A DNA stretch of 64,000 bases from assembly GCA_944470555.2 (NCBI GenBank), contig OX104132.1:3543755-3607754 (forward strand). The letters run 5' to 3'. This stretch comes from Heterobilharzia americana (lineage: Eukaryota > Platyhelminthes > Trematoda > Strigeidida > Schistosomatidae). The notes beneath the pieces were generated by a model, which made no database searches, was not told where the DNA came from, and saw only the letters and a program-made list of their open reading frames with translations. Positions 4,380 through 59,875 of this stretch are shown in pieces. Position numbers and translations under genes: made by a program. Numbering within the stretch: the stretch's first letter is position 1; every line of letters starts with the position of its first letter.

Positions 4380-6790
4380 TCGGTTATAATAAAAGCAAAA
4401 GAAAGGATGACGACAAAGCTGAACAAATCTCAGATTACGAGCGACCATGTGAATTCATTCCCAGTTAACCCAGACAACTATGTGACGAATTTATCATCCG
4501 TTCAGTTATCTGTTTTTATAAAGAGGCGCTCTCTTTGGGTTCAGTTTTTCTGTCCCTCAAACACAAAACTCTGATTTAACAACCGATGCTCAATTTGAAA
4601 ACCTGTATGATCAACTGAGCTCACTTGTCCCAACTTCTCCAGACAATGAGAACTGGCTAAGAGCTAAATTAGTAGACATCGCTCATGGGTTTCATAATCC
4701 TGGTCCAAGACAGAAAAGCATCTTAACGCGTGAGCATTTCCAAGCACTGAAAGGATTACGAAATAACTCTGATATTGTCGTACTAAAACCCGATAAAGGA
4801 TCAGGTGTGGTCGTTATGAACACGTCTGATTATAAAAGTAAGATGTTATCTATTCTCAGTGATGAAAGCAAATTTACGTCAGATGCCCCCTGTGAGGGAT
4901 ACGTAAATTGGAAGGCAGAGTAAATTCTAAACTTGTGAAAATGCTTGGTATGAATTTAATCAATAAGGAGGAATTTAATCGTCTAAAACCTATGGGATCT
5001 GAACATCCACATCTATATGGGTTACCTAAAACTCATAAGCCTGACAACCCACTGCGTCCAATATTGTCTATGTGTCGATCACCCACACATAATCTAGCCA
5101 AATGGTTGGCAAAGCTCTTGAATCCTGTCAGAAGCCATTTATGTAAGTCCTCATTGAAAGATACATTTGACCTTATTGACTGTTTAAATGATATTAATAT
5201 CAAGGATAAGACTATGTACTCGTTCGATGTAAATTCTTTATTTACTAATGTACCTCTAGTAAAAACAATTGATATTTTATGTGACTATATTTCTTCTAAC
5301 AGTCTTATATTCCCTATCCCTATTAATTTTTTAAAAGATTTATTGTTATTATGCACTGATAAAGTTGAATTCACATTCGAGGGCGAACACTTTCAACAGA
5401 TTGATGGTGTCGCGATGGGCAGTCCATTAGGACCGTTGCTAGCTGATGTATACATGTCATATGTTGAAAACATGGCTGACGATCTCATCGGAAGGGTTTC
5501 ACTTTATAAGAGATATGTTGATGATATAGTCATTATATGTGAAAAGCCTGATGATGCAATGTGCCTGCTACAGAAAATGAACACGGCTCAGAATCACATT
5601 AGCCTGACTTGTGAACAAGAGACGAACAACCAGCTACCGTTCCTAGACGTATTGCTCAGTCGACGGGAGGATGGCTCGATCAGGAGGTCGATCTATAAGA
5701 AACCTACATGGACAGGGCAATATCTTAATTTCCATAGCTATTGTCCAGTCCAATACAAACGTGGTTTAGTCAGATGCTTATTCAACAGGATAAACCGTAT
5801 CTGCACCGATGACACCAGGGAGGAAGAAACCAACTTACTGACGACAACTCTGATACAGAATGGATACCCGTTGAGATTTATCGACCGGTGCAAAAGTTAT
5901 GTACCATTGAAAAGTACACAGTGTTCCGTTGCTAAGAAAAATGTCTACATCTCATTACCATTTAGAGGTGATTCACATAGCTTTGTTGTGAGGAAAAGAC
6001 TTAGATCGGCCATCTGTAAAACGTATTATGCAGCTAAGGTCATCATTGTAGAGAAGACCAAGTCCATGTTACAGCACAAACCGAAACAACATATAAACGA
6101 TTACATCACATCCCACTGTGTTTATCAATTTACATGTATGTGTGGACACACATATATAGGGAGGAGTAATCGTGATATGCAGTTAAGGAAGGCTGAACAT
6201 GTACCTAAGTGGCTACAAAAACAAATGACCTCAACAGATCCGATAAGTGCAGGTGACAAACATCCATCTTCGTCTATCGCTAAACATATACTAGAAACTA
6301 ACCATAGGATAGACATGAAAACAGCCTTTAAAGTACTACATAAAAGTGGTCAGAGCCGAGTGCTTAAATTTATTGAAGCTCTTGCCATCCGTAAATTTAA
6401 ACCCCCTTTATGTATACAAAAACAATTTGTACTCACGTTGAACCTACCTTGGTAGTATTGATTTTAATTTTCATACCAAGAATAAGGTTTTCCTTTTTTT
6501 TCTATCCCTTCCTATTCCTATGTTTCCCATTAACTTCATTGACCTTTTCGTAAATTTTCATATAAATAGTTCGACAAGTCCATGTGTGATCAGATTGTTC
6601 GAAATGTATAGCGCTAATACATCGCATGTTTCAGATAATCTTCATCTTCTCATCACGGTGTTTAAGTTTATAAGTTAATTGATGTGACCTTTCATCTGTC
6701 ATGGACTACTTGAAAGATCAAATTGTCAATATGGAGTTTGTACTGTTGATACATGGATGATACTTTTGAAGTCTTTGATAGGTGTATACA
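4380..6790 (+). mobile_element. Penelope-like retroelement, nearly complete coding region
   Basis: This plus-strand element contains an N-terminal region, reverse transcriptase and GIY-YIG endonuclease module in the order of canonical (EN+) Penelope-like elements. Its 3' untranslated part (about 6456-6790) is T-rich and shares GTGTGATCAGATT and a GAAATGTA-like stretch with a second relic near 56150. That match supports this region being part of the element. A truncated second copy follows head to tail at about 6800. The upstream edge is uncertain. Confidence 0.85.
4541..6455 (+). pseudogene. Penelope-like RT and GIY-YIG polyprotein, one frameshift
   Basis: The polyprotein copies RNA into DNA and would nick target DNA through its endonuclease. 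Frame 1 (about 4541-4922) carries the N-terminal motif DIVVLKPDKGSGVVVM. The frame then breaks near 4890-4920, and the remaining 515 residues are open from 4908 to the stop at 6455. In that part YGLPKTHKP is at residues 37-45, motif A FDVNSLFTNVP at 106-116 (catalytic Asp 107), motif B DGVAMGSPLGPLLADVYM at 166-183, motif C YVDD at 203-206, and LPFLDVLLSR follows. The C-terminal third has YQFTCMCGHTYIG and R-AEH, the GIY-YIG signature. The 5' part (4460-4560) carries traces of the usual leader in mixed frames. All visible RT catalytic residues are intact, so the copy is fairly young. Splitting by a single frameshift makes it non-functional as written. Confidence 0.88.
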
Positions 6791-10329: not shown

Positions 10330-10980
10330 GGTTAGTTTGATATCATCATGTTCGGTGAAGACGCTGATTATATACGGGGCTTCCTGGACGTCATGAGCAG
10401 AAATCTATCAAATGTAAGATGATACTATAAAACTAGTCGGCTGCAAGTACTCGTAGTGAAGTGATGGAATGTGTTGACCACTTCACCTACTTGAGGAGTT
10501 ACATCAACCCGAACAGGTTGGTTGCTGACGAAATCTCAACTCGGATATAGAAGACCCACTTAGTATTTGCCAGCTTGAGTCACCTTCATTGCTGATTGAC
10601 GAGATATTCAACTATCCATTAAAGGACCAGCGTATACTAATAAGTTGCAGTCTGCTCTGTTCCATTATTAAGCGAAGAAATATGAAACGATTACAGGGTT
10701 TTCACCATAGAATTTCTCACCATCATCATATCACCAATGTAGGGGGGTCAGGCGAAAGGTGCTACGTAAGAGTGACAAATAAGTCGATGAGGTTGTGAAC
10801 CTTTTGAGACTGAGATGACTTGGTCAAGTACTACGCATTCCGATCCATCACATAACCAAACTAAGGGAAGTTGGATTAGGTTGAAAAAGGGCTAAGAGTG
10901 GTCACACAAAGATACTGCACCAACTGACTGTTCATCTGAGCCGTCCATAATCCAATAAGAAATGGATTAATTCCTACATA
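10330..10980 (+). mobile_element. RTE-like family A fragment (3' half of pol)
   Basis: Scattered frames give the family A sequence EVMECVDHFTYLRSYINPN near 10460 and NKSVDEVVNLLRLR near 10780, with stops between them. The sequence ends about 75 bp before the downstream edge of DPH2 exon 4. Confidence 0.65.
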
Positions 10981-16789: not shown

Positions 16790-17490
16790 GACTGTTGATC
16801 TGTTATACAGACTTACTGGTACGGTTTCGTGTAGCAATTGAAATCGATAGTTGTTAACTCGACATGTGCCTCTAAATCAATGAGTGGTAGAGATGTATCT
16901 ACGCCATATCTTTATCTACACCGTTACATCATATATTGGATTGTTTGCTTTCGTTCATCTTTTTCCCCCTGACTTTCTACATCTTTTTGGTGATATTTTA
17001 TTGTTATTTCCTTATCTTGTCGCCTATTTTTATGTGGTATTATACGATATGATGAATGGAACAAGCATAGAAGTAAACGGTCCTCCTTTGTTACCAGCTG
17101 ACTGTACATACAAGAGGAGATTTCATATTTTGCTTCAAAAACATTCCCACTGAAATTCACTGAAAAATGCATACACAACGTGTAGTTAGTCACTATCTAC
17201 TATATGACGGAATGGTTAAACAACAACAAAAAAACTACATTATAAATACATTTATATAAAAAGTGAAATTCCCTGACACTCAATAACCTTCTGCATATTC
17301 ATAGAGTAGGCAATAAGTTACACGTATTATATGAAGGCGAATAACACTACCTAGTAGGTGGAGAAAAGTTGGTTGAAAATCAACTGCTTCAATCAATGAG
17401 CTACAGATGATAATAATGCCTAATCTTCTGAAGTTATAAACAATAACTACATCTTGAAAGATAGAATAGTATAGAGTAAATCAGATGAAC
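16790..17490. other. Intron stretch with no recognised feature
   Basis: Lies between a family A fragment and the donor of DPH2 exon 3. Open frames around 16884-17193 occur on both strands without any recognisable protein and are taken as chance. Confidence 0.45.
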
Positions 17491-17494
17491 TTAC

Positions 17495-18185
17495 GAGAAT
17501 CCCTATACATTGTGCATCTTTTGCTCTTTCAATCAAATATGATCTCCTCTTTAATAATCGATTCACTTGTATACCAGATACATCTAGATTACAAGTGATT
17601 GGATCAAAAATATGAGTTTTAGATGGATTGACTTCAGGTAGAGAAAGTAGAATACGATATAAAGGAAGCAGATCAGAATTATTAGCTGTCATATGTCCAA
17701 TATACAACATATTCCAACTATGTTCATTAATATTGCTTGTAATAGTCAATTCAGACTGAAAAGGAATAAATAATCTTCCACAACGAATAAATTTGTTTGT
17801 ATTATTATTACCATCAGAGATAGCTTGAATTCTTGTATCTGATGTACTAAAATATGGTTCAGACCAAATTAAATGAAGAGATTTAATTCCAATTGAGTCA
17901 CACATGAGTATTAACTCTTTATAGAATCTGTCAGCGATATCTTTGAAACGGAAGTCGTAAGTAATCACAAGAAATGATGTATCTTCTGAATAGGATTGAA
18001 TTTTTTCAATTAAGTTATGTAAAATTTGTTCAAATGATTGTATCTCAGCTGGAATACATGGTGAATACTTGCCAAATACATAAAACACAGGTATACGTCG
18101 TGTATTTTCTGATAGACAAGCTTGACCGTAATGTACAACTGCATTAACTTCAATATGTTGACCAGATATCTCATCGACACAACAA
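17495..18185 (-). CDS. DPH2: DPH2 exon 3 (largest coding exon)
   Basis: Diphthamide biosynthesis protein 2 works with Dph1 in the first step of diphthamide formation on elongation factor 2, transferring an aminocarboxypropyl group from S-adenosylmethionine. This exon (691 nt) encodes about residues 70-300. It starts after a GTACTTCAG acceptor (AG at 18187-18186) and supplies T to complete serine before CCVDEISGQH. That Cys-Cys (71-72) and the Cys of HYGQACLSENTRR (93) lie in the region that binds the iron-sulfur cluster in the family. FIPFQ, WNMLYIGH and LLKRRSYLIERAKDAQCIGI follow the family order. The exon ends at ATTCTC/GTAAGT in phase 0. Upstream in-frame codons MVYFS in the genomic sequence are intronic. 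No stop or frameshift is seen. Confidence 0.95.
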
Positions 18186-18237
18186 CTGAAGTACACCAAA
18201 TATACAAATTTCAGTCAATGAAAAACAAAACAGAAGT

Positions 18238-18905
18238 TTAGAAGTAGTATTCATCATGGACTGACATAAGTTGGGGAACTAGTGAAAATCTGGAAGCACT
18301 GGACAGTTGTTCCGTCCTAGTATGGGAGTCCCCAGCAGTACGCACCCACGACCCGGCTAGGGATAGAACTCAAGACCTTCAGCTTTCACAGCGAATGCGT
18401 TAACTATTCAGCCACTGGGTTGGTTTCCAGTGGTTCACAATTTCCAACTTCTGCCAATTCACGATATAGCGCGACTATTATCCAAGGTCTTTAGATGCCA
18501 TCCCCTTCTCTTCTGACTAGTTGACGCATCAGGTCACAGCTTCGCATTAGAGCTTCATAATATTCATCTGGAAGCAAGTCACTAATGAGCACTATAGAGT
18601 AATGTATTTTTGAGATGAGTGGGGATTTTTAATTTAGAAGTAGTACTCGCGCTATGCTGTGAATTGACAGAAGTTGGAAATTGTGAACCACTGGAAACCA
18701 ACCCAGTGGCTGAATAGTTAACGCATTCGCTGTGAAACCTGAAGGTCCTGAGTTCTATCCGTAGCCGGGTCGTGGTGCGTACTGCTGAGAAGTCCCATAC
18801 TAGGACGAAACAGCTGTCCAGTGCTCCCAGATTTCCAATGGTTCCCCAACTAATGTCAGTCCATGACGAATACTGCTTTTAAATTTAAAAAAATCCCCAT
18901 TCATC
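18238..18905. repeat. Facing pair of SINE copies forming an inverted repeat
   Basis: A minus-oriented copy (about 18238-18480) and a plus-oriented copy (about 18645-18905) of the same tRNA-headed SINE face each other across roughly 170 bp. Shared segments include AACCCAGTGGCTGAATAGTT (18703) and its complement (18405), and TAGGACGAAACAGCTGTCCA (18801) against its complement with one or two changes (18310). The flank GATGAGTGGGGATTTTTAA (18616) is complementary to 18890-18905. The pair lies in DPH2 intron 2. Confidence 0.85.
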
Positions 18906-43027: not shown

Positions 43028-43102
43028 ATGGCTGGTGGGACGGAACCGAATCAGACGGAAGTAAAACAGAATTCTGAAGATATGCAAGACTTGACTGCAT
43101 CT
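43028..43102 (+). CDS. HSBP1: HSBP1 exon 1
   Basis: The first coding exon of heat-shock-factor-binding protein 1, a small coiled-coil protein known to bind the trimerisation region of HSF1 and reduce its activity. It starts at ATG 43028 and encodes 25 residues: MAGGTEPNQTEVKQ then NSEDMQDLTAS. MQDLTAS matches the VQDLTSVV segment at the start of the conserved coil. The donor is GCATCT/GTAATG in phase 0. The whole protein over three exons is 73 residues, against 76 in human. Confidence 0.88.
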
Positions 43103-43134
43103 GTAATGCTATTCCAAAACCTAATGTCCATTAG
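43103..43134 (+). other. HSBP1: HSBP1 intron 1 (32 nt)
   Basis: A 32-nt GT-AG intron (GTAATG ... CATTAG). With this acceptor the heptad spacing of the coil is the same length as in vertebrate HSBP1. The alternative AG at 43140-43141 would shift the frame and meet a stop soon after. Confidence 0.82.
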
Positions 43135-43201
43135 ATTTCAGGAATGCTCAAGAATATACAGGAATCGTTTAACACCATGAGCGAACAGCTGTTAGGAAAG
43201 A
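43135..43201 (+). CDS. HSBP1: HSBP1 exon 2
   Basis: 67-nt exon encoding ISGMLKNIQESFNTMSEQLL GK plus the first base of an Ile codon. It corresponds to VQTLLQQMQDKFQTMSDQII GR in the human protein, with the same length and hydrophobic spacing. Its 3' end has no GT: the sequence after 43201 is ATATCCTTT, the U12-type AT-AC donor. Joining A to TA of the next exon gives Ile, as in the conserved G(R/K)IDD. Confidence 0.88.
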
Positions 43202-45809
43202 ATATCCTTTTTTTAACACACCTCTATATTTGTGCACTTATTTGTGATTTTTAAAAATTAACATTGGGAACAGAATCATACAGGTGCTGTACACTGTGCG
43301 TGCACTAATAGTTGAATGTATCCCTATTCCAGCCAGCATTTACTTCGGGCGCAATTTGTGATTTTCGAGATTTAGCCCGGACCAAGTGCAGTTACCAGAT
43401 TCCGGGTATGTCGTCTAGAATTTGCAGTTTTTCCCACTGACCGTCTCAATTAAACTGATTTCTAATACACAAACATCAGGCAATGAAACATGAACGATAT
43501 ATTACGTTATATTACCAAATAAGGCTTGTTATAACTGTGTATCTTGATCATTCCAAAGATTAGGGTAAACTGCCCACACTTTGTGACCTTCGGCATATTG
43601 CAAATTAGTACGTACTGATTTGAAAGCCATTCGCTGCTTGTTTGAAGCCTCAGGCATAAATGAGTGCCGTTGACTCTCTTTTTACCATAAAATCAGTTAA
43701 AGCGAGACATAATTAAGGTTTTGATTAGGTGTTGGGATAAGAACTCGAGTACTAGAATGATGTTCAGTGTGTTTTTTGGCTGATTTTATTTACTGTTAGG
43801 AGTATGTGCACATACGAAGCCTCGCAAATTATCTGGTAGCGGTACACTCACATGCACACTAGTTCCCTTCGGTCTTATGGACTTTATCAATAATCCAACT
43901 GAAATGCCTATTAACGTTAAAATAAAGCTGGTTGCTCGATTTTATTGAGGTAACCTCTAAAGGGTGGTGGGATTCTATGATCCCGTCAAAGCCTATATGC
44001 CTAATTTGCATGAAATGTTAATTAGAAATGGCGAACTGACTGTCTTATAGGTCCCAGGCCAAAAGCCTCCACGTGGATCTATGCTGACAGCTGTGTAGCT
44101 TTGCAATTGATCTATTCTGTACTCATGCTTGTGGGATTGAGACGATCGCCGTACAATGAACAAATTTTATGGGGATGAAAAGCACCTATTAGTAGTTAGC
44201 TTTGAAACTCCAGTAATGTTTTTTTAGTTATATAAGCAAGAGTGGACTGTCGTATACAATAATTGCAAGTAGAAATGACAAAGCCGAACCTTTAGCTTTA
44301 TTATGCATAGTTCCCTGTAAGAAAAGCAGATGGAGAGTAAAATTCTGACATAACAGGGTTGAGAGTAGTTGGAAATGGTCAAGATGTAGCATAACCGGTT
44401 CTAGCAAAAATCCTTCATAGTCTATTAAAGATGATAGGCCAACTATAAAAGTGGGACTGGCAAGTTTTTATACCTCCGAGATATTTCTCTTGTGAAATTT
44501 AAGATAACTTGCATCTTTATGCATTTGCACTAGGTATTATGTAAAGTTGAATAAGCAAATTATCTATCCAATGTAAGCTTAGGAGATAGTCACTGTGTAT
44601 GTTGTGCAGAAATATGGTGGCAGTAATGAACGCTCGCTGTTTACACAAGAAGGTGATCATTAGAAACAGCTTACCATTTATTCTTTCATACCTAGTTTTT
44701 CTTGTTAATATAATTCTCAGTAGTTTAAAGTTAAACAGAATAAGACAGAAAAATGAATAAACCTTTTTGTTTTAAATAAGTTAAAAATCAAAATTAAATT
44801 ATTAGAGAAGTAAATATAATTCATTTTTGTGCGTATTTCTTGTAAGCGGTGAATTTTCGATATGAAGTTTTTCATTGTTGTACTGAATTTATCTAAAATA
44901 GTCCAAAACGAAAAGAAACAACTATTACTTGTCTAGTATTGGCAATAAGTCACTGTGTAACTCAAAAACTGTATGAAATTTCGTTCACTAGGCAATGAGT
45001 GACATCGTGTAAGAACTGTTAATAATACCTGAAGGTGCTGAAATGATTAGGTTAGGCATTGCTTGTATCCATGGTTGAAGATCAAATATTTGACCACTTG
45101 TCCATTGATTTGGTTTTAAAAAAATATCCTTGGTATGCTCAGTAGACTTGGTGTTATCATGTCTAGGGTAAGAAATATTTTATAAAACCTGTAATTGAAA
45201 AAAATCACATGTATTGTTTAGGTGCCTACTGCGTTTCTCAATCTTCAGGACCGAAGCCAGTTCAGGCGAAATTGAGCCTAGGACTCATCACTTGAAAGCA
45301 CATTGCTTAAGCCGATTCTCCACAAGTTAGGTATTGCTCATTGTTTGACTTACAACCTGGTACTAGTTTGATGAGACATTTACTTCATTGTATCAGTAAA
45401 CAGCAGTGTTGTTAGTAGAGATTCTGATAAGCTTCACCTTTTAGACCAGCTTCCTTTCTATAATGACTCTTACCGACTAATAATTCCTTGGCAGTATATC
45501 ATATGTCATCTCCAGAAATGAACAGTGGTTTCTCAAGGTTAATGACAAGAGGATTGCTTTTGGACTGTAAACAGTATAATGAGTAAGTAAACGGTGGCGA
45601 TCGTCTACATATCAGTATGTGAGTTGACTCATGGTCACAAAAGGTCAACTATTGATCCTATGAGATGGGAAAAGTAGCTAACAAACTTGTTTATAAATAA
45701 AGGCAGTAAATGTGACTAACATACCCAACACTGAAGCTATGATTTAACGAGAGTAATTTTATCACTATAATATTAATATTTTGCTTATTACTCCTTAACT
45801 GATAAATAC
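43202..45809 (+). other. HSBP1: HSBP1 intron 2: candidate U12-type AT-AC intron (2.6 kb)
   Basis: The intron starts ATATCCTTT (43202-43210), identical to the U12-type AT-AC 5' splice site. Near its end lies TCCTTAAC (45792-45799), identical to the core of the U12 branch-point consensus. It ends AC at 45808-45809, about 11 nt after the likely branch A, inside the usual 10-14 nt window. These borders restore LLGKIDDLSKRVDDIEKN without a gap. No GT-AG pair examined near the borders gives that joined protein. No repeats or exons are seen inside. Confidence 0.85.
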
Positions 45810-45889
45810 TAGATGATTTATCGAAGAGAGTGGATGACATTGAAAAGAATATTGGAGACATTGTAGGAGGTCTTGACAAAGGCGAGTAA
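45810..45889 (+). CDS. HSBP1: HSBP1 exon 3
   Basis: Terminal coding exon of HSBP1. It supplies TA to complete Ile and then encodes DDLSKRVDDIEKNIGDIVGG then LDKGE and TAA at 45887-45889. The conserved human counterpart is DDMSSRIDDLEKNIADL. The C-terminal tail is shorter than in vertebrates. An AATAAA polyadenylation signal lies about 180 nt downstream. Confidence 0.9.
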
Positions 45890-48419: not shown

Positions 48420-48650
48420 GTTGGCAGATGGGCTCATATGCGGATGCCTCGGTACTGCTGGATATTCATGATGCTATATTGATCTCGGTGACTAGCAGAG
48501 GAGTACAGGACAGGCGTTTCGTCTTATTTGGGACTAGTCAGCTGAATATACCTGCACCTCAGTGCCCAGTGATGTTGTTCCTACTGATGCTCGGACCCAG
48601 TATCTATCGCTTCAAACTCCACAACGTTATCCACTAGGTGTCATAATAAG
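48420..48650 (-). repeat. Sm-alpha-like SINE with decayed hammerhead
   Basis: Read on the minus strand: a tRNA-like head (CACCTAGTGGATAACGTTGT, near 48643-48624), a middle with CATCACTGGGCACTGAGGTG, the hammerhead-like core at 48552-48495, then GAGCCCATCTGCCAACAGAG. A second copy at 59560-59875 has the same order. Sm-alpha elements of schistosomes are known Pol III SINEs with a hammerhead ribozyme. Confidence 0.8.
48495..48552 (-). ncRNA. Hammerhead-ribozyme-like sequence, one core base changed
   Basis: The minus strand reads TTCAGCTGACTAGTCCCAAA then TAAGACGAAACGCC and TGTCCTGTACTCC. The active schistosome ribozyme has CUGANGA and GAAA in its core. Here CUGACUA has the G of GA changed to U, while GACGAAAC is intact and stem II (AGTCCCAAATAAGACG) is nearly preserved. 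Probably inactive. Confidence 0.72.
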
Positions 48651-48651
48651 A

Positions 48652-48795
48652 GGTGGCTATCATGCCACAGTGGGGGTGCAAGTACATCCAGCTGACGCAT
48701 CTCAAATAGGACGAGATGTGTGTCTTAGATTTCTTTGCTAGTCAATATAAGGGATACACAAATGATTATGGATATCCAAACCAAGTTGGGATTTG
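48652..48795 (+). repeat. Sm-alpha-like SINE, plus-strand copy facing the previous one
   Basis: Starts GGTGGCTATCATGCCACAG, with a deleted tRNA-like head, and continues with AAGTACATCCAGCTGACGCA and the hammerhead-like region at 48680-48745. It is head to head with the minus-strand copy. Confidence 0.7.
48680..48745 (+). ncRNA. Hammerhead-ribozyme-like sequence, two core changes
   Basis: TACATCCAGCTGACGCATCT followed by CAAATAGGACGAGATGTGTG and TCTTAGATTTC. The final A of CUGANGA is C, and GAAA is GAGA. The fold is recognisable, but activity is unlikely. Confidence 0.65.
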
Positions 48796-59559: not shown

Positions 59560-59875
59560 TATTATTATTGTAAGTGTTATTGCTTGTATTACACCGTAGT
59601 TGATTGGACCGAATTGATCACTCTCTGTTGGTATATGGGCTCCTGTGCGGATACCTCGATATTGCCTGTGTTTCAATTATGTATAGTAATGATGAGCAGT
59701 GGAATCCAGGATGCGCATTTCATCCTATTTGGGACTCCCTAGTCAGCTGGATGTACTTGCCTCCCAGTGAGTGATGTTGTTCTCACCGGGATTCTGACTG
59801 AGGAGCGATCGCTTCAAACGCGAGAGGGTTATCCGTTACACCACCGAGCCATGATAGCCACTTTTTGTGAGACGG
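59560..59875 (-). repeat. Sm-alpha-like SINE, nearly full length
   Basis: From the 5' end on the minus strand: GGCTCGGTGGTGTAACGGAT (box A-like), TCACCGGGATTC-complement region, CACTCACTGGGAGGCAAGTA, the hammerhead region (59758-59695), ATTACTATACATAATTG, GAGCCCATATACCAACAGAG and CAATTCGGTCCAATCAACTA, ending in GCAATAACACTTACAATAA. Confidence 0.85.
59695..59758 (-). ncRNA. Hammerhead-ribozyme-like sequence with an insertion
   Basis: The minus strand reads GTACATCCAGCTGACTAGGG then AGTCCCAAATAGGATGAAAT, GCGCATCC and TGGATTCCACTGC. The 3' half with GAAA and the substrate strand CCTGGATTCCAC matches the schistosome hammerhead. The CUGANGA side is broken by about four extra bases. Confidence 0.75.

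Follow-up and report, generated by a model that had tools for sequence, protein, structure and literature searches.

Members of the HSBP1 family bind and restrain HSF1 and act as a brake on it. The HSBP1 gene of the fluke Heterobilharzia americana raises the question whether its second intron belongs to the U12-type AT-AC class that is removed by the minor spliceosome, and whether HSBP1 genes of other organisms contain the same intron. The gene is located in the stretch of DNA analysed here (64 kb; C6:3543755-3607754), which we call the window. An initial annotation of the window had described an AT-AC intron of 2.6 kb beside a 32-nt U2-type intron in a gene for only 73 residues, and both introns were found as described (Table 1). 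We estimate a probability of roughly 95% that the fluke HSBP1 gene keeps an ancestral phase-1 U12-type AT-AC intron inside the isoleucine codon of G-K-I-D-D and that this intron would be removed by the minor spliceosome. The splice signals, a protein that is conserved across the junction and minor-spliceosome snRNAs in the same assembly all favour the U12-type AT-AC class. From this sequence evidence we infer that HSBP1 is a target of the minor spliceosome in the fluke and that the intron is spliced accordingly in the worm.

Table 1. Features of the HSBP1 gene; positions are those of the window.
Feature	Position	Strand	Remarks
HSBP1 gene	43028-45889	+	73-residue product
Coding exon 1	43028-43102	+	25 codons, phase 0 at end
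Intron 1	43103-43134	+	32 nt, GT-AG, U2-type, phase 0, after DLTAS
Coding exon 2	43135-43201	+	ends GGA AAG A, phase 1
Intron 2	43202-45809	+	2608 nt, AT-AC, putative U12-type, phase 1
Candidate U12-type 5′ splice site ATATCCTTT	43202-43210	+	start of intron 2
Candidate U12-type branch site TCCTTAAC	45792-45799	+	10 nt before last base of intron 2
AC acceptor of intron 2	45808-45809	+	
Coding exon 3 and stop codon	45810-45889	+	

The predicted protein is readily recognised as HSBP1. It scored 61.3 bits against Pfam PF06825 (cut-off 28.6), while a match to BLOC1_2 stayed below its cut-off (21.6 against 33.4 bits), and the single solved structure with a match, PDB 3ci9 (1.7e-11), is HSBP1. Two matches were found in the protein collection, of which the closer is C1LGT8 of Schistosoma japonicum with 73% identity over the full length and the other is the S. 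mansoni entry A0A5K4F9F2. At the predicted join of exons 2 and 3 the coding sequence reads GGAAAGA/TAGATGAT. The initial annotation had stated that these borders join the protein as in HSBP1 from other animals; in agreement with this, GKIDDLSKR runs without interruption across the intron 2 junction in S. japonicum C1LGT8. C1LGT8 is probably derived from cDNA, in which case it would show at the transcript level that S. japonicum joins the protein in the same way.

Intron 2 starts with ATATCCTTTTTTTAAC and ends with TCCTTAACTGATAAATAC, and the start ATATCCTTT, the branch site TCCTTAAC and the AC end that had been proposed for it are all present. The two candidate branch adenosines precede the last base by 12 and 11 nt, a distance of roughly 10-13 nt to the 3′ end of the intron being usual for U12-type branch sites. 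Intron 2 therefore combines the features of a U12-type AT-AC intron, namely the donor, the branch site with its distance and an AC acceptor that restores the protein. By chance, ATATCCTTT would be expected at a given position with a probability of 6.6e-6 and TCCTTAAC with one of 1.9e-5. Within the window the donor motif was found twice on the plus strand and not on the minus strand, and the branch motif with AC or AG 6-12 nt downstream of it occurred once per strand. On the plus strand 2.28 occurrences of the shorter pattern [AG]TATCCTT were expected and six were seen; three of these donors are located 60-20,000 nt upstream of 45792 and could pair with the branch site at that position. The U12 motifs alone are thus not rare enough in 64 kb, and the weight of the argument rests on their coincidence with the protein junction. 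A chance origin of the motifs was rejected, since they fall exactly on this junction.

How closely the protein constrains the borders was seen in a scan of 170 donors and 220 acceptors near the junction (37,400 pairs), with C1LGT8 as reference. At least 45 amino acids were obtained from 32,188 of the 37,400 pairs. The pair 43202/45809 reached the top score against C1LGT8 (265) and was the sole pair among those tested that produced the 73-residue protein. Borders with GT-AG or GC-AG ends were rejected: the best of these 233 pairs scored 237 and inserts intron residues, each of the six best adds or loses residues, and none yields the protein. The earlier statement that no nearby GT-AG alternative gives this protein was thereby borne out (0/233).

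We then consider whether the fluke encodes the corresponding machinery. Profile searches with Rfam cut-offs covered the assembly of 664,890,237 bases in 337 contigs. U12 was found in two mutually identical copies of 82.5 bits and U11 in two copies of 80.8 and 71.7 bits, all above the cut-off, and 22 matches to U6atac exceeded the cut-off across the assembly. A cmscan of loci L003, L004, L011-L013 and L014-L016 returned U6atac, and these loci contain AAAAGGAGAGA. Two identical candidate copies of U4atac scored 47 bits against a cut-off of 53, the 3′ part fitting the model poorly in both; they have opposite orientations and are separated by about 1.1 kb (L017/L018, G000:C6:44209058-44210452). 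The 5′ part of the U4atac candidate formed a duplex with U6atac of -44.4 kcal/mol. When the first 60 nt of U6atac were shuffled 500 times by mononucleotide, no variant reached this value (mean -27.3, best -41.1). None of the U12, U11, U6atac and U4atac models had a match in 14 control genomes. The search for these four snRNAs that had been suggested with the initial annotation hence recovered three above the cut-off and U4atac just below it, and the absence of U12 and U6atac, named there as evidence against a minor intron, was not observed, with two copies of the former and 22 matches of the latter. A type I hammerhead ribozyme match was also located near one of the U12 genes (L002).

The snRNAs fit the signals of intron 2. 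The U12 snRNA contains GUAAGGA, which is fully complementary to TCCTTAAC if one A is bulged, and the 5′ end of U11, AAAAAGGG, faces the intron 2 donor. Both this 5′ end and U6atac are complementary to the donor, their pairing energies having been calculated without a shuffled control. In the proposed mechanism U11 and then U6atac would pair with ATATCCTTT, U12 would pair with TCCTTAAC so that the bulged A becomes the branch nucleotide, and the minor spliceosome would join 43201 to 45810. Among the alternatives that we weighed, removal of intron 2 by the major spliceosome in spite of its AT-AC ends fares best and is still very improbable. Rare U2-type AT-AC introns do exist, and the case for the minor pathway is here drawn from sequence, but a full ATATCCTTT donor together with TCCTTAAC at U12 distance, both complementary to U11, U6atac and U12 of the same genome, speaks against a U2-type intron. 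Moreover, TGATAAATAC, which lies between the branch site and the end of the intron, is no pyrimidine tract.

Evidence on the age of the U12-type intron comes from a trace that it appears to have left in protein databases. The S. mansoni entry A0A5K4F9F2 (P0002), which carries the UniRef name HAMP domain-containing protein, resembles HSBP1 up to SEQLLEK and continues with NILFLKSF. Translation of the fluke sequence through intron 2 gives KNILFLTHL. The common NILFL corresponds to A/AT ATC CTT TT, with the slash at the exon border, which indicates that the S. mansoni gene prediction read through the same donor. A0A5K4F9F2 thus appears to be an HSBP1 whose gene model erroneously extends into the AT-AC intron.

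Similar models were detected in other animals with a profile of four rows (the fluke HSBP1, two Schistosoma proteins and a human fragment), for which 120 of 476 matches were listed, i.e. the two Schistosoma proteins and 118 others. The S. mansoni read-through is one of the four rows, and can raise the rank of models with the scar but cannot create them. Residues at the junction were added or changed in 22 of the 118 listed proteins: 15 contain NIL, four NI[DE]M and three another insert (the vertebrate models P0043, P0061 and P0113), and the remaining 96 show no insert. By name, the 15 NIL models belong to nine birds, four mammals and two ray-finned fish and are therefore all from vertebrates. 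The residues after NIL vary between species (FLNEL, YFSGA, VLDEM, SYSLD), as is expected of intron sequence. Among the listed non-vertebrate animal models the scar was found in S. mansoni alone, and the 12 names from insects, ticks and the coral group are without insert and uninformative.

In plants the search was performed with a typed Arabidopsis-like sequence carrying a NILFLFL insert, and 120 of 579 matches were listed. Since this probe favours the rank of NIL models, the 32 NIL-bearing proteins among the 120 listed are not to be read as a rate; they include entries from Arabidopsis, Brassica, Linum, Vigna, Citrus and Rhododendron. A further 75 listed plant proteins are plainly spliced with I[DE][DE]M at the junction, one each reads NDDM and NIEM, and 11 were not parsed, of which eight are altered farther upstream, two differ at the junction but lack NIL (P0164, P0173) and one is normal. 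Five models (P0046, P0050, P0075, P0103 and P0225, from two geckos, two fish and a tobacco relative) have NI[DE]M in place of I[DE][DE]M at equal length; inspection by eye of these four animal models and one plant model gave no explanation by shifted borders with canonical ends.

Judged from protein models rather than genomic DNA, orthologues appear to share intron 2 in the same codon, in the same phase and with the same donor type. The comparison with other flatworms and vertebrates that the initial annotation had called for thus gave the NIL scar in the same codon of S. mansoni and of 15/118 listed animal proteins, all vertebrate, and in addition of 32/120 listed plant proteins. Intron 1 has the same place in the fluke and in vertebrates, as judged by eye from insertions or losses in P0059, P0060, P0080 and P0120. 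Both fluke introns therefore coincide with those of vertebrate HSBP1 as deduced from misread models, i.e. a phase 0 U2-type intron after DLTxx and a phase 1 U12-type intron at GR/IDD. The vertebrate models suggest, by eye, one extra intron near VEE/LE, whereas the stop codon of the fluke gene is in exon 3. In plants the first intron follows QQM (by eye), a place that differs from that in animals; plants and animals thus do not have every HSBP1 intron in common. The simplest account is that intron 2 probably descended from the plant-animal ancestor and was kept in flukes.

The same comparisons bear on two other alternatives. The AG at 45811-45812, 3 nt downstream, could serve as acceptor of an AT-AG intron, alone or alternatively, and give GKNDLSKR, as a TAG directly follows the AC and the reading frame is kept. 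We regard this as even less probable than removal by the major spliceosome: one residue is lost and the Pfam score drops from 61.3 to 47.1 bits, C1LGT8 retains both aspartates of the junction, and the insert-free join in 96/118 listed animal proteins as well as the I[DE][DE]M join in 75/120 listed plant proteins argue against it. The plant model with KNDDM (P0129) is of normal length and is thus not the shorter AT-AG product. A lineage-specific gain of the AT-AC intron in flukes, in favour of which we found no point, is comparably improbable in view of the NIL scar in the same codon of vertebrates and plants. Intron 2 of the fluke HSBP1 is probably an old AT-AC minor intron and not a fluke novelty.

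Minor introns common to human and Arabidopsis have been described before and are few, with 20 cases in Basu et al. 2008 (PMC2426677) and seven in Larue and Roy (PMC10639083). HSBP1 intron 2 resembles the plant-animal U12-type introns treated in these papers in having AT-AC ends, a U12 donor and branch site and an apparently identical position in orthologues; unlike them, the fluke copy is 2.6 kb long and adjoins a 32-nt U2-type intron. In its main text, the paper by Basu et al. (PMC2426677) mentions neither HSBP nor heat shock, and HSBP at the start of a word is absent from the main texts of PMC10639083, PMC2426677, PMC2831892, PMC6717393, PMC6865273, PMC4892727, PMC3728624 and PMC7367187. A full-text literature search for a minor or U12-type intron in HSBP1, HSBP or At4g15802 returned no paper on this intron, two papers that matched being on other subjects by their titles and the openings of their abstracts; catalogues of minor introns may list HSBP1. 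The intron represents a small and well-defined minor intron in a stress-response gene, and its course can be traced in plants, vertebrates and flukes. Where automatic gene prediction fails at an AT-AC intron, a recognisable scar (here Asn-Ile-Leu) remains in protein databases, by which minor introns may be detected without genomes in hand.

The minor-spliceosome components of flatworms are also documented. A complete set of minor snRNAs is given for S. mansoni and S. japonicum by Copeland et al. 2009 (PMC2770079), minor introns are present in Schistosoma according to PMC10639083, and minor snRNAs were reported from a planarian (PMC6312358). Among small RNAs of S. haematobium, U6atac and U4atac were found and U11 and U12 were not, for which the authors suspect misassignment (PMC5993326). 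U11, U12 and U6atac are common to Schistosoma (PMC2770079) and this fluke, and U4atac has candidates below the Rfam cut-off in the latter. According to PMC2770079, each minor snRNA of S. mansoni and S. japonicum, including U6atac, is single-copy, with one to two copies of U12 in S. mansoni; the present assembly differs by 19 tandem U6atac matches plus three others and by two matches each of U12, U11 and U4atac. The tandem array (G000:C2:49974727-50020382; L003-L010, L014-L016) consists of 19 matches of equal score; its repeat unit measures about 1.98 kb, and the array is interrupted at two points. No differences were seen among the eight copies compared, and whole units in L014 showed 99.9% identity with the unit chosen for comparison. 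The three further copies are diverged and are located on C6, C5 and C4.

In human cells unstable U6atac limits minor splicing, and stress-activated p38 stabilises U6atac (PMC3728624). As a speculation to which we attach little confidence, the AT-AC intron might serve as a switch, in which splicing limited by U6atac would delay the release of HSBP1 under stress and the HSBP1 so produced would shut down the heat-shock response. This would account for an AT-AC intron being kept in HSBP1 from plants to flukes, and the enlarged U6atac array of the fluke would then set the tempo of the feedback.

Other features were noted in the window. Four matches to type I hammerhead ribozymes exceed the Rfam cut-off, at 18779-18824 (+), 48503-48547 (-), 48686-48730 (+) and 59704-59752 (-); together with the Schistosoma protein matches they point to a schistosomatid. 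At 10479-10556 (-) a match to mir-3492 scored 44.2 bits (cut-off 44) and may be due to chance or a repeat. An open frame of 519 amino acids at 4896-6455 (+) encodes a reverse transcriptase domain (48.6 bits), and its end resembles, by eye, the GIY-YIG part of a Penelope-like element. A further open frame at 17447-18214 (-) matches the diphthamide synthesis protein PF01866 with 86.7 bits.
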